Part shown: one piece after another, positions 194 through 13,882 of the stretch
Numbering within the stretch: the first letter of the stretch is position 1
How the letters are laid out: the number at the start of each line of letters is the position of its first letter
Source: Anaerolineales bacterium
GTDB lineage: Bacteria > Chloroflexota > Anaerolineae > Anaerolineales > Villigracilaceae
DNA length: 13,882 nucleotides
Assembly (NCBI GenBank): GCA_016928525.1
Contig: JAFGKO010000387.1
Span: 1 to 13,882 of the forward strand
Direction: 5' to 3'
The notes under the pieces: generated by a model
Databases searched by the model: none
Told to the model about the DNA's origin: nothing
What the model saw: the letters and a program-made list of their open reading frames with translations, nothing else
Position numbers and translations under genes: made by a program

Positions 194-583
194 CTAATCG
201 CTTATCTGCTTGTTCACAACGAAAAAGGCGATCCAGAAGAAACCGGACAGTCCAAAGATCACGTAAGGCGCAATCGGGTTCTCGTCCGCCAGGAAAATCA
301 GGGACATTCCGAACATGAACGTAGTGAGCACCGCCAGGATCAAAAAGACATTGTGCTGAACCATCAACTTCTTTACTTTTCTTAGTGCTTCCATTTCATT
401 CTCCTTTCTTAATGGCGCGGGGATCTCCTGCAAAGATGTTGCATTCTTCGCCTGTTCGGCGAGAGTTGCCAATTGAGGGTCGGTCTTGAGATATTCTTCG
501 ATCAAATTACGAGTGTCAGCACTCACCTCATCTGCCAGGTAAAGAGGCAGCAAATCAATGATCAGATGCTTTGGGATGTTCAT
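194..583 (-). CDS. Putative membrane anti-sigma factor, zinc-less
   Basis: The 129-residue protein probably holds the co-encoded ECF sigma factor inactive at the membrane. Residues 8-38 (DLLPLYLADEVSADTRNLIE, then YLKTDPQ) match the pattern of the zf-HC2 anti-sigma N-terminus, but the Cys/His zinc ligands are missing. Two hydrophobic segments follow, about residues 78-98 and 105-122, with a charged linker at 55-75. The start at 583 has an AAAAGGA ribosome site 7 bases upstream and overlaps the sigma gene by 29 bases, which suggests translational coupling. The terminator at 147-179 follows. Known: such partners are often co-transcribed with group-4 sigma factors. Inferred: the anti-sigma role, from position and N-terminal pattern. 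It could instead be a membrane protein without sigma-binding activity. Confidence 0.7.
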   Translation of the reverse strand: MNIPKHLIIDLLPLYLADEVSADTRNLIEEYLKTDPQLATLAEQAKNATSLQEIPAPLRKENEMEALRKVKKLMVQHNVFLILAVLTTFMFGMSLIFLADENPIAPYVIFGLSGFFWIAFFVVNKQISD

Positions 584-1067
584 AGTATTTTTCCTTTTCT
601 AACTGAGCCTCTGCGAGCTTCAAGCGCGCACGATGCACCTTTACTTTGACAGTTGTCAGTGGCAATTTCATGACACGGGCAATCTCCTCGTAAGACAGTT
701 CGTGTTGAATTCGCAGAAGAAACGCCGTGCGGTCCACTTCGGAAAGCATTTGGATGGTATCTACCGCGTGCTCCAGTTCCAGGCGGGATTCAACCAGATG
801 GTCAGGGCCGGGTTGCAGATCGACAAGCTCGTGACTTAATTCCACTTTTCGATGCGCATGGCGTTTCTGGTTCAAATACAAGTTGCGAGCTATAGCGAAA
901 AGATAAGCCTTCACTGTCTCTGTGCGAATTTTATGGCGCCCAACCCAGGCGCGGGCGAAGGTCTCTGACGTAAGGTCATCCGCATCCTCCGCGCTCCCTG
1001 AAAGCCAGAAGGAGTAACGGTACACATCCTTGGAATAACGCTCGTAAATCTCATGAAATGTGATCAT
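555..1067 (-). CDS. ECF-type RNA polymerase sigma factor
   Basis: This 170-residue protein is a group-4 (extracytoplasmic function) sigma factor that directs RNA polymerase to a small regulon. The sigma-2 domain spans about residues 7-73, with the typical DADDLTSETFARAW segment at 28-41 and the DNA-reading stretch AIARNLYLNQKRH at 58-70. The sigma-4 domain spans about 98-152, with helix-turn-helix LSYEEIARVMKLPLTTVKVK and then VHRARLKLAE. Its length is normal for the family, with no extra C-terminal domain. The ATG at 1067 fits the domain start; the ribosome site is weak. It overlaps the anti-sigma-like gene at its 3' end and is transcribed away from the lipoprotein cluster. The signal and regulon are unknown. 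Confidence 0.93.
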   Translation of the reverse strand: MITFHEIYERYSKDVYRYSFWLSGSAEDADDLTSETFARAWVGRHKIRTETVKAYLFAIARNLYLNQKRHAHRKVELSHELVDLQPGPDHLVESRLELEHAVDTIQMLSEVDRTAFLLRIQHELSYEEIARVMKLPLTTVKVKVHRARLKLAEAQLEKEKYYEHPKASDH

Positions 1068-1148: not shown

Positions 1149-1337
1149 ATGACTCACCGGATTGACCCCTCCCCCGTAAAAAATCCCCGCTTCTTTCGCG
1201 GATGCTTCCCCCTCCGGGGACGATGCGACACGGATCAGCATAAGCCTCAGCCTGCCACCGTGCAATCAAGCAAAGACACCACTGTGGGGAGAATCCCGTC
1301 CATCCCGATTCCCACAAAAGGAAAGTTGAGCTGGTAA
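1149..1337 (+). pseudogene. 62-codon ORF resembling a decayed recJ 5' end, coupled to lipoprotein 1
   Basis: The first 13 codons match the recJ start at 4471 in 29 of 39 bases. The proteins begin MTHRIDPSPVKNP here and MTRWLDPRPVKTA in RecJ, and a later G-x-x-P-L also aligns if a one-codon gap is allowed. The rest has no likeness to RecJ or any family I recognise, and the composition looks non-conserved (Pro, Arg, Thr). The stop TAA shares its last base with the ATG of the lipoprotein gene (TAATG at 1335-1339), so translation through it could feed the next gene. Either it is a remnant of a recJ-bounded duplication, or a small real leader ORF. No clear ribosome site is visible. I think a remnant is more likely, without certainty. 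Confidence 0.35.
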
Positions 1338-2443
1338 TGAAAATCATCGCTTTTCTGCTTGTCTTCCTCCCTCTCCTTGCCGCCTGCGCCGCGCCGACCT
1401 CCATAGCGACTCCCACCCCCGCGCCCGTTTCTACCAAAGGCGCGGAGACCGAGACCCTTGCAGCAGGAACCCCAACTATGTCCCCAACCCTCACGCCGGA
1501 TTTGGTGACAATGGACGAGTTGGGGATCACGGACTATAGAGCCAAAAAAACTTTTGAGGGCATGCCGGAGACCCTCACCCGTGAAGCTGACGGAAGCTAT
1601 TCGGTCACGGCAAAATCAAATGAGGAAGGAGCCATCACCGAAGGGAAATATACGATTGACATAACAACCTTCGATTTCCATTTGGAAATGAAAAATTTTT
1701 ATTCCCCAGGAACCGTTGAAGCCACAGATGAACAGGGTAATAAGGTCAGATTGATCTGGAATAATGAGCTGGGTTGGGTCAAGGAGTTTACAAACCTGTC
1801 AACGGATATCGAGAATCCGACGGAATTCGATTACGAATACAGAGTACCCATGCTACAGTCCCTCTTGCTTCAACATGAGAGTCCTTTTAAGCCAGGTGGA
1901 GGCTTGGATTTTAGGTTAAGAGTGGACTCAGAAAACTCAAAAGTTATCTATTTTCGTACTGATGATAATGTGGGGAACCTCGCTCGAGTAACCGACTACT
2001 GGTTGAAAGTAAAGATGCCCAATGGCGAATCTTTCATAGTTAACCCGGTTGATATCGATAATGAAGAGGGGAGAGCGATAATCTTGACCGCCTATGGGAA
2101 AAATGCTACGAAAGACGCAGACTCAAGAGCCAAATTACAAAATTGGATAAAAGATCCAACAGCTGCATATTGGTTTATAGTGAGCGCAGACCCATCTTTT
2201 TTGGAAAATTTTCAGCTTGTTGCAGCTATAGATGCAACAGATTACAGTGATCTTAACTATTTATTTGAACTCCAAGATAAAGATATTAATAGCTTAAAAT
2301 TTGGCAAATTTATGCCTAATGATTTAATTGGCCGTATATCTCTTCTAGGATCTGAATTTTCCGCTACTTTACCTCAAAAATTACAAACGATGATTCTTCC
2401 TGTCAACACTAATATGCTGGCAGTGAATCCCGCAATCGAATAA
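1337..2443 (+). CDS. Lipoprotein 1, paralogue of the gene at 2689, unknown function
   Basis: The 368-residue protein has a lipoprotein signal peptide with lipobox LAAC ending at Cys17, then a Thr/Pro/Ala-rich linker to about residue 53 that would tether the domain at the outer face of the membrane. Residues 54-145 begin PDLVTMDELGITDYRAK and are clearly homologous to lipoprotein 2 (shared EADGSYSV, YTID, ATDE-GN-V-LIW). The middle has diverged, and likeness returns near the C-terminus (QTMILPVNTN versus QIMRLPVTSS). I recognise no enzymatic motif or named domain. The ribosome site is weak and distant (AAAAGGAAAG at 1316-1325), and the start overlaps the stop of the upstream ORF as TAATG. The 3' half is visibly more AT-rich than the 5' end. 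A secreted binding or structural role is possible but unproven. Confidence 0.85.
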   Translation: MKIIAFLLVFLPLLAACAAPTSIATPTPAPVSTKGAETETLAAGTPTMSPTLTPDLVTMDELGITDYRAKKTFEGMPETLTREADGSYSVTAKSNEEGAITEGKYTIDITTFDFHLEMKNFYSPGTVEATDEQGNKVRLIWNNELGWVKEFTNLSTDIENPTEFDYEYRVPMLQSLLLQHESPFKPGGGLDFRLRVDSENSKVIYFRTDDNVGNLARVTDYWLKVKMPNGESFIVNPVDIDNEEGRAIILTAYGKNATKDADSRAKLQNWIKDPTAAYWFIVSADPSFLENFQLVAAIDATDYSDLNYLFELQDKDINSLKFGKFMPNDLIGRISLLGSEFSATLPQKLQTMILPVNTNMLAVNPAIE

Positions 2444-2471: not shown

Positions 2472-2500
2472 TTGATTCTCTGTTTTTTTTCTGCTACTCT
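2472..2500 (+). promoter_or_regulatory. Promoter of the first Cys-rich peptide gene, leaderless type
   Basis: TTGATT (2472-2477) and TACTCT (2495-2500) are 17 bases apart, and the ATG follows the -10 by six T. No Shine-Dalgarno exists between them, so transcription would start at or next to the start codon. The stretch CTGCTACTCTTTTT is repeated identically before the paralogous gene at 4111. Confidence 0.55.
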
Positions 2501-2506
2501 TTTTTT

Positions 2507-2656
2507 ATGAAACGTTTTCTTCTCTTCGCAGGAATTTCTTTATTTACTTTATTTTTTTATGTAGCTGCTATCACACAGGTGAGGGCATCCGCCCCATGCT
2601 GCGCCTATGATCCGTGTCGTTTGAACAGGACTTTCGTACCGATAGGTCGTGAGTAA
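2507..2656 (+). CDS. Tiny secreted Cys-rich peptide A (49 aa)
   Basis: The ORF encodes a 49-residue precursor. It starts MKRFLLFAGISLFTLFFYVA (basic N-terminus, hydrophobic core), has a signal peptidase site after VRA (residues 25-27), and gives a mature peptide of about 22 residues beginning SAPCCAYDPCRLNR. Cys31, Cys32 and Cys37 are in the mature part. It is a paralogue of the peptide at 4111. Across the shared core APCCAYDPC all four codon differences are synonymous third-position changes, and the N-terminal codons for FLLF differ synonymously too, which is strong evidence for protein coding. Its own leaderless-type promoter precedes it. Lipoprotein 2 begins 32 bases after its stop with a strong ribosome site, so the two are probably one operon. 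No family is recognised. Vicinal cysteines could form disulfides or bind metal (inference). Confidence 0.75.
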   Translation: MKRFLLFAGISLFTLFFYVAAITQVRASAPCCAYDPCRLNRTFVPIGRE

Positions 2657-2688
2657 CCCAAAGAACGTTATCCAGCCAGGAGGAAAAC

Positions 2689-3891
2689 ATGAAATCCTTG
2701 AAGTCCGCTTTTATCCTGTTGATTCTGCTAACTGCTTGCGCCGCGCCCACGCCCGTTGCGACTCCTGCCCCGACCATCCCCAGTATTCCCACTTCCCCGC
2801 CGCCAACCCCAACCGTGGCCCCGACCCCCACGCCGGATTTAGTGACAATGGATGAGTTGGGGATCACGGACTATAGAGCTAAACAAACTTTTGGTGAGGA
2901 TATGCCAAAAACTGTTACCCGTGAAGCTGACGGAAGCTATTCCGTCAATGCCATAGGCTACGAAGGGGAGAATAAGACGGAAAAGAAGTACACCATCGAC
3001 ACCTCAAGTTGGAACTTAAACACTGACATCAAAAACGCCTATGCCCCAGCAACCGTTAATGCCACGGATGAGGAAGGTAACCAGGTCACCCTTATCTGGA
3101 GCGCCGAACAAAAGGCTTGGCGCGTGCCTTTTGCCATGATCCCCGACACAGAGCTCAATAAGATTGACCAACATCCTTTTGTTCCTGAAGGGGATGAGAA
3201 AATAGCCGTTGAGTCAGCGTTGCTTTGGTTTAGGGACAATCCTCCCTTCACCGATGCGGCGGTGGAGAATTATAAAGAGTATGGGGGAAATGTAGTGAAC
3301 GCTGGCTTTGATACTATAGTAAAAGGCAATGCCGTCTTTTTACGTCCTGAAGCTATTCAAAGTGAAAATAATGCACATCCCAATGCCGACAACTCTACCA
3401 TAAAATTCTCGCCCCTATGGATAAGGCAAAACATCAATGGAAAACTCCAAGACATTAATATTATAGTTAATTTGGATAGTCCTGACAAAAACAATTATAA
3501 AGTATTGTTAGGAATTCCTATGGGAATGAGCCTGTCTGAAATATCTGCCACAAAAGGACAAGACGGTTTGAATGAGGAAATACAGTATTACTACGGTGAT
3601 TCGCCATTCTATTATCCGTTTGTAGCTTTATACGCGGATCAAGATCCCGATATAAAAGCTCTCCTTGCTTTACCGAATAATGATCCGGGGAAATTGACAT
3701 TCCCAGGTTACAATGGGCAATACAAGTTCTATGACATTTTTTATAAATTAAAGAGTGAAGTTAATAATGATCCAACGATATTTAGGGAATTTGTTATAGG
3801 TACAAAGAATCCTAATGGTGGAAGAATCTATATGAGTTTTCCTCCGGAAATCCAAATCATGCGTCTCCCTGTAACCTCTTCAAGGAATTAA
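2689..3891 (+). CDS. Lipoprotein 2, paralogue of the gene at 1337, unknown function
   Basis: The 400-residue protein has a lipoprotein signal peptide with lipobox LTAC and Cys17, at the same residue number as in lipoprotein 1. A Pro/Thr-rich linker runs to about residue 49. The conserved segment starts PDLVTMDELGITDYRAK, continues TREADGSYSV and ATDEEGNQVTLIW (about residues 50-137), and a variable middle follows. The C-terminus has QIMRLPVTSS, matching QTMILPVNTN of the paralogue. The start at 2689 is fixed by AGGAGG at 2678-2683. It is the second gene after peptide A, likely co-transcribed, and presumably acts outside the cytoplasmic membrane. I see no catalytic motif. The likeness to lipoprotein 1 is strongest at both ends and weak in the middle, which suggests duplication followed by rapid divergence or domain replacement. 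Confidence 0.87.
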   Translation: MKSLKSAFILLILLTACAAPTPVATPAPTIPSIPTSPPPTPTVAPTPTPDLVTMDELGITDYRAKQTFGEDMPKTVTREADGSYSVNAIGYEGENKTEKKYTIDTSSWNLNTDIKNAYAPATVNATDEEGNQVTLIWSAEQKAWRVPFAMIPDTELNKIDQHPFVPEGDEKIAVESALLWFRDNPPFTDAAVENYKEYGGNVVNAGFDTIVKGNAVFLRPEAIQSENNAHPNADNSTIKFSPLWIRQNINGKLQDINIIVNLDSPDKNNYKVLLGIPMGMSLSEISATKGQDGLNEEIQYYYGDSPFYYPFVALYADQDPDIKALLALPNNDPGKLTFPGYNGQYKFYDIFYKLKSEVNNDPTIFREFVIGTKNPNGGRIYMSFPPEIQIMRLPVTSSRN

Positions 3892-4075
3892 GCTAGTGAA
3901 AGTCAAAATCAAACCTAAGGCATAAATATACTTGATTAAATATAAATTATTGGGGGTAGAGGACTTGAAGCAAGAGGAACTATCCGAGTGATCAAAGACA
4001 ATTTGACCTGAAATACAAACGATGTTGCCATTCTCCTATCAGTACATTTGTAACTTGATGAAGCTTAAAGATAAC

Positions 4076-4104
4076 TTATTTTTGCCTAATAGCTCTGCTA
4101 CTCT
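4076..4104 (+). promoter_or_regulatory. Promoter of the second Cys-rich peptide gene, leaderless type
   Basis: TACTCT (4099-4104) lies six bases before ATG, in CTGCTACTCTTTTT, identical to the box before peptide A. The -35 candidate TTATTT (4076-4081) at 17-base spacing is weak. The rest of the gap 3892-4098 is AT-rich and shows no gene; TTGTAACTT at 4048-4056 echoes the box upstream of the sigma gene. Confidence 0.5.
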
Positions 4105-4110
4105 TTTTCT

Positions 4111-4257
4111 ATGAGGCGTTTCCTGCTGTTTTTCTGTATATTCCTTTTTGCGATCTTTGCCTATTTCTCCTCAATAAAGCCGGCCCGGGCCGATGCCCCA
4201 TGTTGTGCCTATGATCCATGCTGTGCCAGTAACTGTTTTGATTATGATCTTGTGTGA
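4111..4257 (+). CDS. Tiny secreted Cys-rich peptide B (48 aa)
   Basis: This 48-residue precursor is a paralogue of peptide A. It has MRRFLLFFCIFLFAIFAYFS as signal core, a cleavage site after ARA (residues 25-27), and a mature peptide of about 21 residues starting DAPCCAYDPCCASNCF. Cys31, Cys32 and Cys37 fall at exactly the same residue numbers as in peptide A, and it adds Cys38 and Cys42. It ends in acidic residues (DYDLV), whereas peptide A ends in a more basic tail. There is no Shine-Dalgarno; the -10-like TACTCT six bases before the ATG implies a leaderless message. It follows lipoprotein 2 by 219 bases and has its own promoter. No family is recognised. Function unknown: a secreted signal, toxin-like or metal-binding peptide are all open. 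Confidence 0.75.
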   Translation: MRRFLLFFCIFLFAIFAYFSSIKPARADAPCCAYDPCCASNCFDYDLV

Positions 4258-4313
4258 TGTTTTTCAAACCCAGCACCAGCTCCTTCAGGTTGAGACCCCA
4301 TCGCGACACATTT

Positions 4314-4364
4314 ATCCGCGAATTCATGCTAATCTACTAAAAAAATTCGCGAAGATTAGCGGAT
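4314..4364 (+). repeat. Intergenic inverted-repeat element with crossing arms
   Basis: Three inverted pairs occur: ATCCGC/GCGGAT at the ends (4314-4319, 4359-4364), CGCGAATT/AATTCGCG (4317-4324, 4344-4351) and GCTAATCT/AGATTAGC (4328-4335, 4353-4360). The last two cross rather than nest. It looks like a dispersed intergenic repeat between peptide B and recJ. The remainder of 4258-4470 shows no gene. Confidence 0.55.
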
Positions 4365-4470: not shown

Positions 4471-6792
4471 ATGACTCGCTGGCTCGACCCTCGCCCCGTA
4501 AAAACAGCCTCGCTCGACAGCCTGGGGTTGCACCCCCTCGCCGCGCAAACTCTGGTCCGGCGCGGGATCACCACCCCCGAAGCCGCGCGCGCCTTCCTCG
4601 ACCCCGACTCCCAACCCCTGGCCTCCCCCTATGAACTCCCCGGCATGGGAGCGGCGGTTGAGCGCATCCTTTTGGCTATCCGCAACAAAAAGCCGGTCTG
4701 CGTCTGGGGCGATTTCGACGTGGATGGGCAGACCTCCACCGCCCTGCTGGTGCAGACCTTGCAGGCGCTCGGCACAGACGTAACCTACCATATCCCCATC
4801 CGCGCTGTCTCGTCACACGGAGTCCATATCCCACAACTGGCCGAAATCATCGAGCGCGGCGCAAAGCTGATCCTGACCTGCGACACGGGCATCAGCGCGC
4901 ACGAGGCCGTGAAGTACGCCCAATCCCGCGGCGTGGATTTTGTCATCACCGACCACCATGAACTGGGTGAAACCTTGCCGGATGCCGTCGCTGTCGTTAA
5001 TCCCAAATTGATGGCAGGAGACCACTTTCTGGCGAATCTGGCAGGCGTTGGGGTTGCCTACAAATTGGCAGAAGCATTGTTCGAAAATTGGGATTCGGGA
5101 ATTGGGAATCGTGATACATTTCCCAATTCCCGAATTACAACTCCCGAAATCCTTCTAGATCTTGTAGCTCTGGGGCTAATCGCCGATGTCGCCTTACTGA
5201 AAAATGAAACCCGCTCCCTGGCCCAAAAGGGACTGGAAACCCTGCGCAACTCCAAACGCTTGGGGCTGAAAATCATCTCCGAATTTGCCAACCAGCCGCT
5301 CTCACAGGCCACCGAGGAATATATCGGCTTTGTGCTTGCGCCGCGCCTGAACGCGTTGGGCAGGCTGGGCGACGCCAACCCCGCCGTCGAACTGTTGACC
5401 ACCAGCGACCCCGTCCGCGCGCGCGTGCTGGCGGCGCAACTGGAAGGGCTGAACAGCCAGCGCAGGCTGCTCACCAGCCAGGTCTACCGCGCTGCTGAAG
5501 CCCAATTGCGCGCAGATCCGTCCCTGCTGGAAGGGCCCGCCATCGTGCTGGGACATCCCTCCTGGCCGGGCGGTGTGGTGGGCATCGTCGCCAGTCGTCT
5601 GAAAGATCGCTACAACAAACCCGTCATCCTGTTCAACACAGCCGAAGGCGAACCCGCGCGCGGCTCGGCGCGGTCCATCGAGGGATTGCACATCACCAAA
5701 GCCATCGCCGCCCAAAAGGATTTATTGTTGAATTTCGGTGGGCACCCTATGGCCGCAGGTCTCGCGCTGGAGCAGGAGAACCTGCCCGCGTTCCGCAAGG
5801 GACTTGGAAAGACCATCGAAGCCATGCTGGGCGATGTAGTCTACGAAGAACCGTCCCTGCAAATCGATGCCTGGATGTCCCTGGATGAACTGACTCTTGA
5901 TCTGGCCGATTCCATCGAGCAACTGGCTCCCTTTGGCGCAGGCAATCCATCCTTGACTTTTGCCTCGCGGAACGTGCAATTGAAAGCGGCGGCAAAGATC
6001 GGGAAAGCGCAGGAACATCTGCGCCTGAACGTGGAAGACCAACAGGGGAACACGCAAGGTATCCTGTGGTGGAACGGCACGGACGAAGGCTTACCTGAAA
6101 CAGGCAGCAAACTTGACATTGCTTATTCTTTACGTGCCAGCACCTACCGCGGGGAGAGGCAGTTGTCGCTGCAATTTGTCGACTATCGTGTTGTTGAAGA
6201 AAAAGCAGTCGAAGTAAAACGTAAAAAGATAGAAGTCATCGATTTCCGTCAAAACGCTGAGCCATTTTCCCGTTTGGCCGTTCAGGTGTTTGCGGAAGGT
6301 GCAGATAAGAAGAAATTGGATGGCATGGATCGATACAACTTACGGCCAGCCGATGAATTGGCGATCTACACGACCCCGCCAGGACCAGGAGAGTTGAAAG
6401 CAATCCTGGAAAAAGTCAAGCCACAAAAGGTGTATCTCATCGCGCACAATCCGCCCGCCGAAAAGACGGACGAATTCCTGACCCGGCTGGCAGGCATGAC
6501 AAAATTCGTCATCGCTAAAAAAGGTGGTAAAACCGCAATTTCTGAACTGGCCGCAGCAACCACCCAACGTGAGTCCACTGTACGGATCGGGTTGGAGTGG
6601 CTGGCAGCCGGGGGGCATGTAGCAATTACCGGCGAGGAAGATGCGATTTCCCTGTCCGCTGGAAATGGCGCGGGGAATCAGTATGTCCAGAAGGAACTGT
6701 ATGTCGCGATCAAGGGTCTACTCGAGGAAACAGCAGCATACCGAAATTATGTCGCTACAACAAAAGACCCTAAAGGTCTGGTAGACCTTTAG
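4471..6792 (+). CDS. recJ: Single-stranded-DNA-specific exonuclease RecJ
   Basis: RecJ degrades single-stranded DNA 5' to 3' in recombination and mismatch or base-excision repair, using metal ions held by DHH-family motifs. In this 773-residue protein I see motif I as VWGDFDVDG (78-86), TCDTG (136-140), DHH (161-163), NLAGVGVAYKLAEAL (189-203), LVALGLIADV (231-240) and the DHHA1 signature GGHPMAAG (423-430). An OB-like part follows to about 575. The C-terminus (about 585-773) extends beyond the usual 560-580 residue core and contains a stretch that reads like a winged helix (ISELAAATTQRESTVRIGLE, 690-709). Residues 208-222 are encoded by a palindromic insertion. All catalytic motifs are intact. 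The gene converges with the oxidoreductase operon, and its stop lies inside a shared hairpin. Confidence 0.96.
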   Translation: MTRWLDPRPVKTASLDSLGLHPLAAQTLVRRGITTPEAARAFLDPDSQPLASPYELPGMGAAVERILLAIRNKKPVCVWGDFDVDGQTSTALLVQTLQALGTDVTYHIPIRAVSSHGVHIPQLAEIIERGAKLILTCDTGISAHEAVKYAQSRGVDFVITDHHELGETLPDAVAVVNPKLMAGDHFLANLAGVGVAYKLAEALFENWDSGIGNRDTFPNSRITTPEILLDLVALGLIADVALLKNETRSLAQKGLETLRNSKRLGLKIISEFANQPLSQATEEYIGFVLAPRLNALGRLGDANPAVELLTTSDPVRARVLAAQLEGLNSQRRLLTSQVYRAAEAQLRADPSLLEGPAIVLGHPSWPGGVVGIVASRLKDRYNKPVILFNTAEGEPARGSARSIEGLHITKAIAAQKDLLLNFGGHPMAAGLALEQENLPAFRKGLGKTIEAMLGDVVYEEPSLQIDAWMSLDELTLDLADSIEQLAPFGAGNPSLTFASRNVQLKAAAKIGKAQEHLRLNVEDQQGNTQGILWWNGTDEGLPETGSKLDIAYSLRASTYRGERQLSLQFVDYRVVEEKAVEVKRKKIEVIDFRQNAEPFSRLAVQVFAEGADKKKLDGMDRYNLRPADELAIYTTPPGPGELKAILEKVKPQKVYLIAHNPPAEKTDEFLTRLAGMTKFVIAKKGGKTAISELAAATTQRESTVRIGLEWLAAGGHVAITGEEDAISLSAGNGAGNQYVQKELYVAIKGLLEETAAYRNYVATTKDPKGLVDL
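5093..5135 (+). repeat. Palindromic element inserted in frame in recJ
   Basis: A perfect 16-bp inverted repeat (ATTCGGGAATTGGGAA at 5093-5108, complement at 5120-5135) with an 11-base loop lies within recJ. It encodes residues 208-222, between the NLAGVGVAYKLAEAL and LLDLVALG blocks, a linker that tolerates length change. The reading frame stays open. Codon use here differs from the GC-rich surroundings. Confidence 0.75.
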
Positions 6793-8636: not shown

Positions 8637-8655
8637 AGATTCTCCTTGTATTTCC

Positions 8656-8774
8656 GGTGGTTGAGTAGGACGAGCGCTTTTTTCGTCTGTATCGAAACCA
8701 CCAATTTAAAGTTGCTCTTGTTACTGGTGGTCTCGATACGGGCTGGGAAATGCACCTACCCCTACTCAACCACC
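8656..8774 (-). repeat. Nested palindromic intergenic repeat in the aor operon
   Basis: Perfect outer arms GGTGGTTGAGTAGG (8656-8669) and its complement (8761-8774) enclose an inner near-perfect pair around GTATCGAAACCACCA (8689-8703 and 8725-8739). It fills the 145-base gap between the sulfur carrier and the oxidoreductase and would fold strongly in their shared message. It resembles dispersed palindromic repeats of bacterial intergenic regions. Confidence 0.8.
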
Positions 8775-9028: not shown

Positions 9029-9055
9029 ATTCTAGCATAAATATCAGTATGTCAT
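9029..9055 (-). promoter_or_regulatory. Promoter of the sulfur carrier-oxidoreductase operon
   Basis: On the minus strand TAGAAT (9034-9029) lies seven bases before the ATG at 9021. ATGACA (9055-9050) is a -35 candidate at only 15-base spacing, and it belongs to the end of the adjacent palindromic repeat. The -10 is plausible, the -35 uncertain. Confidence 0.4.
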
Positions 9056-9191
9056 TGCGAGCGAGTGTAACGAGCGCGGCAATCTCCTGATGGTCAGGTA
9101 TGCCCGTTTAACAGGAGATTGCTTCGTGCCGCGAGCACGCCGGTGCGAGATGGCAGGACGGGCGATACGGGCGGCAAATCATCCGCCCTAC

Positions 9192-9217
<26 letters not shown>
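9049..9217. repeat. Compound palindromic repeat overlapping the exporter 3' end
   Basis: Perfect 13-bp ends ATGTCATTGCGAG (9049-9061) and complement (9205-9217) enclose a perfect 11-bp pair GCAATCTCCTG / CAGGAGATTGC (9079-9089, 9112-9122). Between the inner pair and the right end lies extra material with a GGGCGG/CCGCCC hairpin (9169-9174, 9183-9188) and CCTACTCAACCA, like the arm of the repeat at 8656. The right end is read as the last codons of the ABC exporter. Confidence 0.8.
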
Positions 9218-11072: not shown

Positions 11073-11153
11073 ATATGTCATTGCAAACCCTGCAAGGGCG
11101 AAGCAATCCCCTAATTATCTGGAGACTGCTTCGCTTCGCTCGCAGTGACATAT
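11073..11153. repeat. Second copy of the ATGTCATTGC palindromic repeat
   Basis: Ends ATATGTCATTGC (11073-11084) and GCAGTGACATAT (11142-11153) pair in 11 of 12 positions. Inner arms GAAGCAATCCCC (11100-11111) and GGAGACTGCTTC (11121-11132) pair in 10 of 12. It belongs to the family of the repeat at 9049 and sits between the divergent exporter and NACHT genes. The gap also holds a CGCGAAGAACGC-type stretch (11038-11062). Confidence 0.72.
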
Positions 11154-11182: not shown

Positions 11183-11224
11183 ATGAACAAAAGCAACAGG
11201 CAAATACAGTTGGAGGCAATATGA
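11183..11224 (+). CDS. Possible 13-codon leader ORF coupled to the NACHT gene
   Basis: The ORF reads MNKSNRQIQLEAI and its TGA overlaps the NACHT start as ATGA (11221-11224). It begins seven bases after a TACAAT -10 element. The ribosome site of the NACHT gene (GGAGG, about 11212-11216) lies inside it. It may be a leaderless first cistron that delivers ribosomes to the NACHT start, or a chance ORF in a short 5' leader. The peptide has no recognised motif. Confidence 0.3.
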   Translation: MNKSNRQIQLEAI

Positions 11225-13527
11225 GCGTGGGAAAAGCAGTTACGGGTGTGGGCGCTTGGGCATGGGAGCAGTTCGGTGAGAATGTCAAACCCAGCTTTTT
11301 ATCGTTTTTGAAACGCAAATGGGATGATGCCAAAGAAGAAAATGAAAAAGTACGCTATGCTGATACAAAATGGAAAGATTTTAGTTGGGGTAAAGCAGTA
11401 AAGCGTTACCAGGAACATATGCGGTCTCTCTATGGTCACATCCGTGTGATTGGGTCAACTGAACCTGTAAAGTTAGATAATGTTTTCACAGATGTTTTCT
11501 TGCTCGAGAAACCACAAGCTTTCCGTAGGTTCGATATAAGCCAATTAAGTAAGTTACAAAAAGAGCCCGACCAATTAGATAACGGTGATCGTTTACGAGG
11601 CTTGCAAGTTGTCATACAAAAGCGTGGACATCGTCTATATATTCTAGGAAAACCCGGTGCAGGAAAAACAACCTTTCTGAAATATCTTGTGCATCAAACA
11701 CTGGAAGCTCAACTAGATAAAATTCCCGTTTTCATCACTTTAAGAGATTGGGCAAATTCAAACCTTGAACTTTTACCTTTCATTGCAAAACAATTCGATA
11801 TTTGTCGATTCCCAGATGCGCAACCATTTATCGAGTACATCCTGGAAAATGGGCGAGCTGTTATTTTTTTTGATGGTTTGGATGAAGTACCGGAACAAAA
11901 TAAACAACGGTCACAAATAACATCTTCTATGCATGAATTTTGCAGAAAGTATCAGGAATCCCAGGTTGTGATTACTTGTCGCATAGCTGCTACTGACTAC
12001 TCTTTCACTGAATTTACCTACATTGAGATGGCTGATTTCAGCGAAAGCCAGGTTAAAACCTATGCTCGCAAATGGTTTGGAAAAGATACTGAAAAAGCAG
12101 AAAGATTTTTGGTTGAGCTTAATAAAGAAGAAAATAAAGGTGTGCGTGATCTAGGCCGAAGTCCACTTCTGCTTTCGATGATCTGCCTAGCATATGATGA
12201 AACATTGACAATTCCTAAAAGGCGTGTTGAACTTTACGAGGAGGCCCTTGATGCACTACTTAAAAAATGGGATTCATCCCGAAATATCCAACGCGATGAA
12301 ATCTATAAAAATCTTTCGCTCGGGCGGAAACGTCAAATGTTCGCCCGTCTTGCTGCTGAAGCATTTGAGAAAGGCGAAATATTTTTCCCTAAAAAACAAT
12401 TAGCATCTCAAATAGAAGCTTATCTAAATAATCTTCCTCCTACCGATATCGAGGATGATATTGATGGAGAAGTTATACTACAAGCAATTTCTGCCCAACA
12501 TGGCATATTTGTCGAGCGAGCTAAAGATATATTTTCTTTTGCTCATCTGACATTTCAGGAATATTACACAGCAAAATATATAACTGACAAGCTAAGTCAA
12601 GGTACCTTACATTCCTTAAAGAAAAATCTAATTGATGATCGTTGGCATGAAGTATTTTTACTAACAGCAAGTCTTTTAGCTGATGCAGATGAATTTTTTA
12701 CTTCAATGCTTTCATTTACTCAAGAATTTATAAAGAAAGATAAAACCCTATTTGAAATTCAAGAATGGGTAGACAAGAAATCTTCCCAATGCTCCTCTGA
12801 TTATAGAAATGCCGCTCGAGCTTTTTATTGGTTTCTTGCACTTGTTCGTGGTCCTGCTCTTGATAAAGCCTTGGGGGAAGCAATTGACCCTAGGCTAGTA
12901 AGAGCAACCACGCTTCCCCCTGACTTAGCAGGTTTACTATTTTCGAGTATTGCTGTTACTAAATCTCTAACCCAAAATCTATCCAATCAAATACATGTAT
13001 TACTAAATGATGCTTTTAACCTATCATTGAATGCTGTTATTGAATCAAATCTTAATTCTAGCAGTATTCTTGAACGCGAATCAAAAACAACACAAATATT
13101 AATTTTAGAAACCAATATAACCTTTATTACTATCATTGCGGAAATTATTGGTCTGCGTTGGGAATGGGCTACTATCTCATCACTTTATCCAAAGATAGGC
13201 AAATTCTATACTCAATTAAAAAAAGGCTGTAAGTTAATTTCAACTGATTTTTCAAAACTATTTGAAGGAATTAAATTACCACCTAGTCAGGCATCGAGAG
13301 ACAAATGGATCGAATTCGCAAATGATGTTCGTACTAACGCTCGGCGAGTTTTAGATATTGGATATTTGTGGAAGCTAGACAAAGAACAAACAGTTTTTGT
13401 GGCGAGTTACCTTAAAGCAAATCTTTTATTACTTGAATGCCTCAATGTCGCTCTCGTATCAAAGAGAGATGCAATACTAACGAATATACTAAGCGCTGAA
13501 AATATCGTACATGAAAAAACTCCCTGA
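11221..13527 (+). CDS. NACHT-domain STAND NTPase, candidate anti-phage protein
   Basis: The 768-residue protein has Walker A GKPGAGKTT (143-151), Walker B VIFFDGLDE (214-222), a sensor-like TCRIAA (252-257), GRSPLLLSMICLAYDE (312-327) and the block FAHLTFQEYYTAKY (440-453), all typical of bacterial NACHT NTPases. Residues 1-130 form a helical N-terminal region that includes GHIRVIG and VFTDVFLLE, as seen in NACHT-associated N-terminal domains. About 300 residues after 455 are helical-looking without visible leucine-rich, WD40 or TPR repeats. No nuclease, TIR or protease motif is seen, so the effector is unknown. Known: some bacterial NACHT proteins restrict phages by ligand-triggered oligomerisation. 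Inferred: the same here. The start at 11221 has GGAGG. The gene is clearly more AT-rich than its neighbours, suggesting transfer, and its 3' end overlaps the next gene by 17 bases. Confidence 0.88.
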   Translation: MSVGKAVTGVGAWAWEQFGENVKPSFLSFLKRKWDDAKEENEKVRYADTKWKDFSWGKAVKRYQEHMRSLYGHIRVIGSTEPVKLDNVFTDVFLLEKPQAFRRFDISQLSKLQKEPDQLDNGDRLRGLQVVIQKRGHRLYILGKPGAGKTTFLKYLVHQTLEAQLDKIPVFITLRDWANSNLELLPFIAKQFDICRFPDAQPFIEYILENGRAVIFFDGLDEVPEQNKQRSQITSSMHEFCRKYQESQVVITCRIAATDYSFTEFTYIEMADFSESQVKTYARKWFGKDTEKAERFLVELNKEENKGVRDLGRSPLLLSMICLAYDETLTIPKRRVELYEEALDALLKKWDSSRNIQRDEIYKNLSLGRKRQMFARLAAEAFEKGEIFFPKKQLASQIEAYLNNLPPTDIEDDIDGEVILQAISAQHGIFVERAKDIFSFAHLTFQEYYTAKYITDKLSQGTLHSLKKNLIDDRWHEVFLLTASLLADADEFFTSMLSFTQEFIKKDKTLFEIQEWVDKKSSQCSSDYRNAARAFYWFLALVRGPALDKALGEAIDPRLVRATTLPPDLAGLLFSSIAVTKSLTQNLSNQIHVLLNDAFNLSLNAVIESNLNSSSILERESKTTQILILETNITFITIIAEIIGLRWEWATISSLYPKIGKFYTQLKKGCKLISTDFSKLFEGIKLPPSQASRDKWIEFANDVRTNARRVLDIGYLWKLDKEQTVFVASYLKANLLLLECLNVALVSKRDAILTNILSAENIVHEKTP

Positions 13528-13882
13528 ACACGGCTCTTGCTTTATCTGCGGAAGCGAAAACCCGCACAACGTCGGTCTGCGCTGGTATGTAGATGAAAAA
13601 GGCGTGGTATCGTCCGAGTTCACGCTGACACTGGCGCAGCAGGGACCGCCCGGTCACGCGCACGGCGGGCTACACGGTCGCGGCGGCGAAGATCGAGGTC
13701 AATTATCGCAAGCCGGTACCGCTGGAGACGTTGATCGCGACGAAGGGCTATGTCACACGGCGGCGCGGGCGCAAGATCTACACGCGCGGGGAAATCTGCC
13801 TGCCGGACGGGACGCTGCTGGTGGAGGGCAAGGGGCTGTTCGTTGTGGCGCCGCATTTGTTCGAGAAGAGCAAGATGTTCAG
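13511..13882 (+). pseudogene. PaaI-type hotdog thioesterase, internally deleted and frameshifted, partial
   Basis: The first frame reads MKKLPEHGSCFICGSENPHN and continues to LAQQGPPGHAHGG, the usual N-terminus and HGG loop of PaaI-family acyl-CoA thioesterases. After 13666 the matching sequence resumes in another frame (from 13668) as GYTVAAAKIEVNYRKPVPL, and continues YTRGEICLPDGTLLVEGKG to the window end. By family likeness about 15-20 residues are missing between the two parts, including the segment that normally follows HGG with the catalytic acid (ASAALLDE-like). The first frame stays open to the edge, but its product no longer resembles the family. So it is a pseudogene, or an assembly or sequencing error. 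It is GC-rich, unlike the NACHT gene it overlaps (13511-13527). The 3' end lies outside the window. Confidence 0.75.

Follow-up and report, generated by a model that had tools for sequence, protein, structure and literature searches.

A pair of exported-type cysteine peptides whose genes alternate with lipoprotein genes upstream of recJ in a Chloroflexota contig

The DNA analysed here (the window, 13,882 nt or 13.9 kb) carries, from left to right, a putative anti-sigma gene, a sigma-70-family factor gene, two lipoprotein genes that alternate with two genes for very short peptides (lipoA–pepA–lipoB–pepB), and recJ. Beyond recJ lie genes for an aldehyde ferredoxin oxidoreductase (AOR), a MoaD/ThiS-like protein, an ABC transporter (minus strand) and a NACHT ATPase (plus strand). 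The examined DNA contained no tRNA, and no Rfam family reached its gathering threshold. The features that concern the peptides are the following.

194–583, minus strand: putative membrane anti-sigma factor, with a sub-threshold match to zf-HC2 (E 0.029)
555–1067, minus strand: sigma-70-family factor (Pfam Sigma70_r2 and r4_2), with a sub-threshold match to Sigma70_ECF (17.4 bits against 21.1)
1149–1191, plus strand: vestige of a recJ start, 43 bases resembling the first 44 bases of recJ (4471–4514)
1337–2443, plus strand: lipoA, predicted lipoprotein of 368 aa with C-terminal type A, a single Cys (at 17) and a P/T-rich linker
2472–2477, plus strand: TTGATT, a weak −35-like element read by eye, with a spacing of 17 to the pepA box
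2492–2500, plus strand: TGC-TACTCT, extended −10-like box 6 nt upstream of the pepA ATG
2507–2656, plus strand: pepA, ORF for an exported-type peptide of 49 aa (predicted signal peptide about 1–27, core 29–37, basic tail, 3 Cys)
2678–2683, plus strand: AGGAGG, Shine–Dalgarno sequence of lipoB
2689–3891, plus strand: lipoB, predicted lipoprotein of 400 aa with C-terminal type B and a single Cys (at 17)
4096–4104, plus strand: TGC-TACTCT, identical box 6 nt upstream of the pepB ATG
4111–4257, plus strand: pepB, ORF for an exported-type peptide of 48 aa laid out like pepA, with an acidic tail and 5 Cys after the predicted signal peptide
4471–6792, plus strand: recJ (DHH, DHHA1 and RecJ_OB domains), with a frame open throughout

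The stop codon of pepA and the ATG of lipoB are separated by 32 nt, and no terminator-like site was found between the two genes. Because of this short gap and the AGGAGG within it, pepA and lipoB are probably co-transcribed on one mRNA. pepB stands alone, with no lipoprotein gene directly downstream. The listed recJ ORF begins at TTG 4444; a TACAAT box lies 6 nt before ATG 4471, and the gene therefore probably starts at 4471 rather than 4444.

An earlier note on this DNA had described the two peptide ORFs (49 and 48 codons) as sharing the core APCCAYDPC, with Cys31, Cys32 and Cys37 at the same positions and with tails that differ in cysteine number and charge. The alignment of the pair bears this out in every respect. 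The nine residues of the core are identical and the three cysteines coincide, while the flanking tails diverge. In blastp the two peptides are 56% identical over 43 aa, with an E-value of 1e-17 that applies to this one comparison. When up to three mismatches to APCCxYDPC are allowed, the window yields the pepA and pepB sites and no others; chance alone would be expected to give 0.01. Counted from P30, the pepA product has 3 Cys and a net charge of +1, the pepB product 5 Cys and −3 (−4 if D28 is included). After residue 38 the tails cannot be aligned, and only 1 of the last 11–12 residues is conserved.

The differences between the genes are distributed as expected for selection on the protein, as the earlier note had argued. 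Over codons 1–38, 45 of 114 bases differ and 23 of 38 residues are kept, the base differences falling 12, 8 and 25 times on codon positions 1, 2 and 3. In a neutral simulation, which placed an equal number of differences at random with the transition share unchanged, none of 20,000 copies reached 23 identical residues of 38 (mean 12.7, maximum 21), and 29% of the copies were free of stops. The true frame yields 23 identical residues; the other five frames give 9 to 16, each interrupted by stops in one or both sequences. All four base differences in the core are silent third-position changes, as had been noted, an outcome that blind change would produce with a chance of 0.002 (all changes) or 0.012 (transitions only). 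Likewise, nine signal-peptide codons (4, 5, 6, 7, 10, 12, 22, 26 and 27), described before as ‘several’, differ only silently. The NG86 method gave a dN of 0.28 and no estimate of dS (it returned −1), the silent sites being too diverged. Diverged silent sites indicate that the pair is old and not a fresh copy, and that the core has been kept by selection. The comparison of the two sequences thus gives good support to pepA and pepB as real genes and old paralogues.

No homologue of the peptides was found outside the window in the protein database, species genomes, viral contigs, plasmids or phages. In the protein database no candidate shared three 5-residue words with either peptide. This silence says little, because the database holds the two lipoproteins of the window and lacks even its two peptides, in keeping with the expectation that annotation misses such genes. 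The DNA scan of species genomes is the informative negative by comparison. It used the fixed pattern APCCxYDPC, which a family with changed core residues would escape, and returned one match in 84,980 genomes, in Rhizobium. There the core lies in another frame of a 464-aa ORF; a 47-aa ORF with an ATG also covers it and has by eye no hydrophobic stretch before the core, and we judged the match to be due to chance. The pattern search proposed in the earlier note as its own check thus produced no homologue. The note had also held that a lack of homologues in related genomes would speak against the pair; such a lack was found for the exact core only, a changed core lying beyond the pattern's reach.

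The viral contigs contained no match to APCCxYDPC. The shorter pattern PCCxYDPC occurs there at 15 loci, all of them judged unrelated, with open frames of 19–38 codons and no ATG before the core; they belong to two sequence contexts that recur at 12 and at 3 loci, and a contig end cuts one of the 12. Searches of plasmids by tblastn with pepA and with pepB, and of phages with pepB, gave nothing. The best sequence matches in the PDB had E-values of 1.7 (pepB alone) and 2.3 (two-row alignment). Neither peptide matched a family in Pfam, NCBIfam or PHROGs at E up to 1, or in PADLOC at E up to 0.01, which agrees with the earlier statement that no named family shows this pattern. CCAYDPC appeared in no paper in the literature search, and among the matches listed for small secreted cysteine-rich peptides none contained Anaerolineae. 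The pair is an orphan family of exported-type microproteins, nameless in the libraries searched.

Both peptides begin with K-R or R-R followed by a hydrophobic stretch, with mean Kyte–Doolittle values of up to 2.4 and 3.3 over 11 residues. V-R-A or A-R-A directly precedes residue 28, and the signal peptides are equal in length. The basic n-region, hydrophobic h-region and A-x-A-type site of a Sec/signal peptidase I substrate can thus all be recognized by inspection. From these features we infer that both peptides are exported by Sec and cut after A27, between V/A-R-A and S/D-A-P. Such a cut would leave SAPCCAYDPC plus 12 residues for pepA and DAPCCAYDPC plus 11 for pepB, so that the mature length of 21–22 residues given earlier is right if the cut follows A27. 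Cleavage at the alternative A-x-A site, behind A29, would leave Pro at +1, a residue disfavoured in that position. The residues before C31 (S/D-A-P) do not form a lipobox and the peptides do not qualify as bacterial lipoproteins; lipoA and lipoB do carry a lipobox (L-A-A-C and L-T-A-C, at 17).

In both peptide genes the first T of TACTCT is at −12, and GGAG, GAGG, AGGA and AAGG are absent within 20 nt. A TANNNT box at 5–7 nt is found before 16 of the 450 ATGs in the window, and its extended form, TGNTANNNT, before 4 of 450; pepA, pepB and the MoaD-like gene account for three of these four. We compared 14 starts, namely those of 12 genes or ORFs, a second start of the ABC transporter and the vestige ORF at 1149. 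A TANNNT box at 6–7 nt without any Shine–Dalgarno sequence precedes four of them (pepA, pepB, recJ and the MoaD-like gene), five have a Shine–Dalgarno-like word (the anti-sigma gene, lipoA, where it lies at an unusual 14–15 nt, lipoB, AOR and NACHT), and five show neither arrangement (the sigma gene, ORF 1149, both ABC starts and ORF 13511). A stricter scan for the sigma-70 consensus returned 8 promoter-like matches in the window (6.0 expected), neither peptide box among them. pepA and pepB nevertheless have the sequence signature of leaderless genes, a −10 box about 12 bp upstream and no Shine–Dalgarno sequence, and their mRNAs may well be leaderless, each starting from its own box. According to PMC3160421, leaderless starts are preceded by a TANNNT box at a distance of about 12 bp, and leaderless genes occur in 4 of 12 Chloroflexi genomes, where they make up only 4.7% on average. 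The Chloroflexi box given there is TAtaaT, which TACTCT matches poorly, a point against the leaderless reading.

The lipoproteins beside the peptides are neighbours and not relatives of them. lipoA and lipoB are paralogues of each other. Both carry a lipobox and a P/T-rich linker; they share the N-terminal domain and differ in the C-terminal part, where 48 of 201 aligned residues are identical. Neither has a Cys beyond residue 17, and so no disulfide between peptide and lipoprotein is possible. The lipoprotein search returned 12 rows, two of which are the window's own proteins (P0009, lipoA; P0001, lipoB). The other 10 are relatives from outside the window, 357 to 640 aa long, of which reading of the alignment assigns seven to the lipoB type (P0002–P0008) and three to the lipoA type (P0010–P0012); P0005 is labelled as a Chloroflexi bacterium MAG. 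None of lipoA, lipoB and the 10 relatives reached a curated Pfam cut-off, and none of lipoA, lipoB and six of the 10 relatives an NCBIfam cut-off. The two lipoprotein models had no confident match in the PDB. No relatives of the lipoproteins were found in viral contigs, and none of lipoB in plasmids.

The N-terminal domains of lipoA and lipoB are also close at the nucleotide level (1468–1607 and 2805–2947, 85% identity over 143 nt), and the conserved stretch has a G+C content of 54–57%, compared with 39–41% in the diverged C-terminal parts. Gene conversion or domain swapping is a likely origin of this resemblance. In the peptides, 13 of the 22 same-residue codons after Met1 differ silently, compared with 8 of 34 in the conserved lipoprotein stretch (residues 55–100 of lipoA). 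Since silent changes are fewer there, this stretch was probably homogenized later.

The recJ-start vestige aligns with a local score of 39, against at most 25 in 300 shuffles. When it was compared with 194 blocks of the window, the two overlapping blocks that hold it both scored 39 and the next best 23. The lipoprotein–peptide block (3.3 kb) lies between this vestige and the intact recJ, an arrangement which suggests that the block came to the recJ start by insertion or duplication.

The reading that we prefer is that pepA and pepB encode exported peptides in which a constant cysteine head carries a variable tail, and that these peptides act at the cell surface with the lipoproteins. Taken as a whole we give it a probability of roughly 0.45, so that it falls a little short of even odds; the status of the genes is well supported, export is read from the sequence, and the function is proposed on top of both. 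From the open frames, the selection on the protein and the layout, which are observed, the proposal extends through expression, export and processing to a disulfide or metal site and a partnership at the surface. The −10-like box of each gene would drive synthesis of a leaderless mRNA, and Sec export with a signal peptidase I cut after A27 would release a peptide of 21–22 residues outside the membrane. The head (S/D)APCCAYDPC could form a compact turn held by a disulfide or a metal through CC-x4-C. The divergent tail (basic without further Cys, or acidic with two more Cys) could then direct each peptide to its own partner, and the peptides would act at the surface together with the alternating lipoproteins. 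The combination of fixed head and variable tail mirrors the lipoproteins, with their common N-terminal domain and varied C-terminal part.

Several points count against this proposal. Adjacency is the sole evidence that ties the peptides to the lipoproteins. The tails are without conservation, and nothing in the two sequences shows selection on them. The cysteine counts are odd (3 and 5), leaving one unpaired Cys per peptide unless a dimer or a metal is involved. The sum of both counts is even (8), and a heterodimer is conceivable in which the CC-x4-C heads pair and the basic peptide (3 Cys) complements the acidic one (5 Cys), with two matched lipoproteins handling it at the cell surface. We regard this variant as improbable; to our knowledge no two-peptide, two-lipoprotein system of such a kind has been described. 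What the locus does illustrate is that exported-type peptides this small can be recognized from one contig by comparison of paralogues when the databases are empty. If the pairing with the lipoproteins is true, it would offer an entry point into a surface interaction of poorly studied Chloroflexota.

The peptides might instead be bacteriocin-like killers of close kin, with the lipoproteins as surface immunity, one for each peptide, and an arms race shaping the tails. Two peptide–lipoprotein pairs that diverge in the peptide tails and the lipoprotein C-terminal parts would be expected in that case, and the lack of any species-genome match beyond the chance one would suit fast turnover. We nevertheless consider this role unlikely. 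Neither lipoprotein matched an immunity family above the cut-off in Pfam or NCBIfam, and PADLOC gave none; only BSAP-5i (NCBIfam) appeared, below threshold and in relative P0005 alone (10.9 bits against 150). At 357 to 640 aa, the members of the family are bigger than one would expect of immunity proteins. The peptide genes have no transporter or maturation gene beside them, the ABC transporter being about 5 kb away. Two-peptide (class IIb) bacteriocins resemble the pair in that two small exported-type peptides are encoded nearby. They are made with double-glycine leaders and come with an ABC transporter of their own and a small immunity protein, whereas the leader here is of the Sec type, no transporter adjoins, and neither peptide contains a G-G, G-A or G-S pair.

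Just as unlikely in our estimate is a role in metal binding or redox chemistry, where the CC-x4-C head would bind a soft metal or cycle between thiol and disulfide outside the cell and the tails would set localization. The identity of the nine-residue core while the remainder drifts fits this idea, and odd numbers of Cys suit thiolate ligands better than closed disulfides. The surroundings speak against it. Next to the pair are genes for lipoproteins and a sigma-70-family factor, and recJ, but none for metal transport or redox chemistry; the AOR gene is more than 2 kb away, beyond recJ.

We are more doubtful still that the cut peptides serve as exported pheromones for kin, with the lipoproteins or the sigma/putative anti-sigma pair (194–1067, minus strand) perhaps acting as sensors. 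The presence of a sigma factor and a putative membrane anti-sigma factor close to genes for small exported-type peptides would suit such signalling. However, the zf-HC2 match of the putative anti-sigma factor and the Sigma70_ECF match of the sigma factor are both below threshold. The peptide box is moreover of the same kind as those of recJ and the MoaD-like gene, and no separate promoter type was apparent in a comparison of TANNNT-type boxes as opposed to extracytoplasmic-function sigma promoters.

It is very improbable that pepA serves as a leader peptide, a regulatory ORF that controls lipoB through attenuation at its Cys codons, as its Cys-Cys pair and its position just before lipoB might suggest. 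RNA folding was no better than in shuffles for any of four stretches (z +0.07 to +1.38; +0.71 for 2580–2710 and +1.20 for 4190–4330), which argues against attenuation; pepB has no lipoprotein gene directly behind it, and a signal peptide would be purposeless. An origin of the ORFs by chance, or by duplication of non-coding DNA in recent times, would explain the missing homologues and the absence of the peptides from the protein database's gene predictions for the contig, and is equally remote in view of the codon-position bias, the neutral simulation, the diverged silent sites and the common start box.

A close comparison is with the orphan microproteins, the broad class of lineage-specific small exported proteins of bacteria. 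The pair shares with them a length below 50 codons, a signal peptide, a history of being missed by gene callers and the lack of a named family. What sets it apart is that two old paralogues combine a constant Cys head with tails that differ, that each has a leaderless-type start, and that lipoprotein genes are interleaved with them.

Some features elsewhere in the window deserve mention. Two pairs of imperfect inverted-repeat arms (8654–8672 with 9184–9202, and 9048–9064 with 11136–11152; 89% and 94% complementary) surround the MoaD-like gene and the ABC transporter and are possibly small palindromic repeat elements. At the right edge, the ORF at 13511–13882 has an apparent frame change near 13640, with the frame of ORF 13731 as plausible continuation; neither piece matched Pfam, and the change reflects either a broken gene or an assembly error. 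The NACHT ATPase (11221–13527, plus strand) has a match to an NCH2 C-terminal domain and to PDC-S60 in PADLOC (E 2e-9, 34 bits). Its G+C content is 37.5%, compared with 57–61% for recJ, AOR and the ABC transporter, and we regard it as a candidate for an acquired defence gene.
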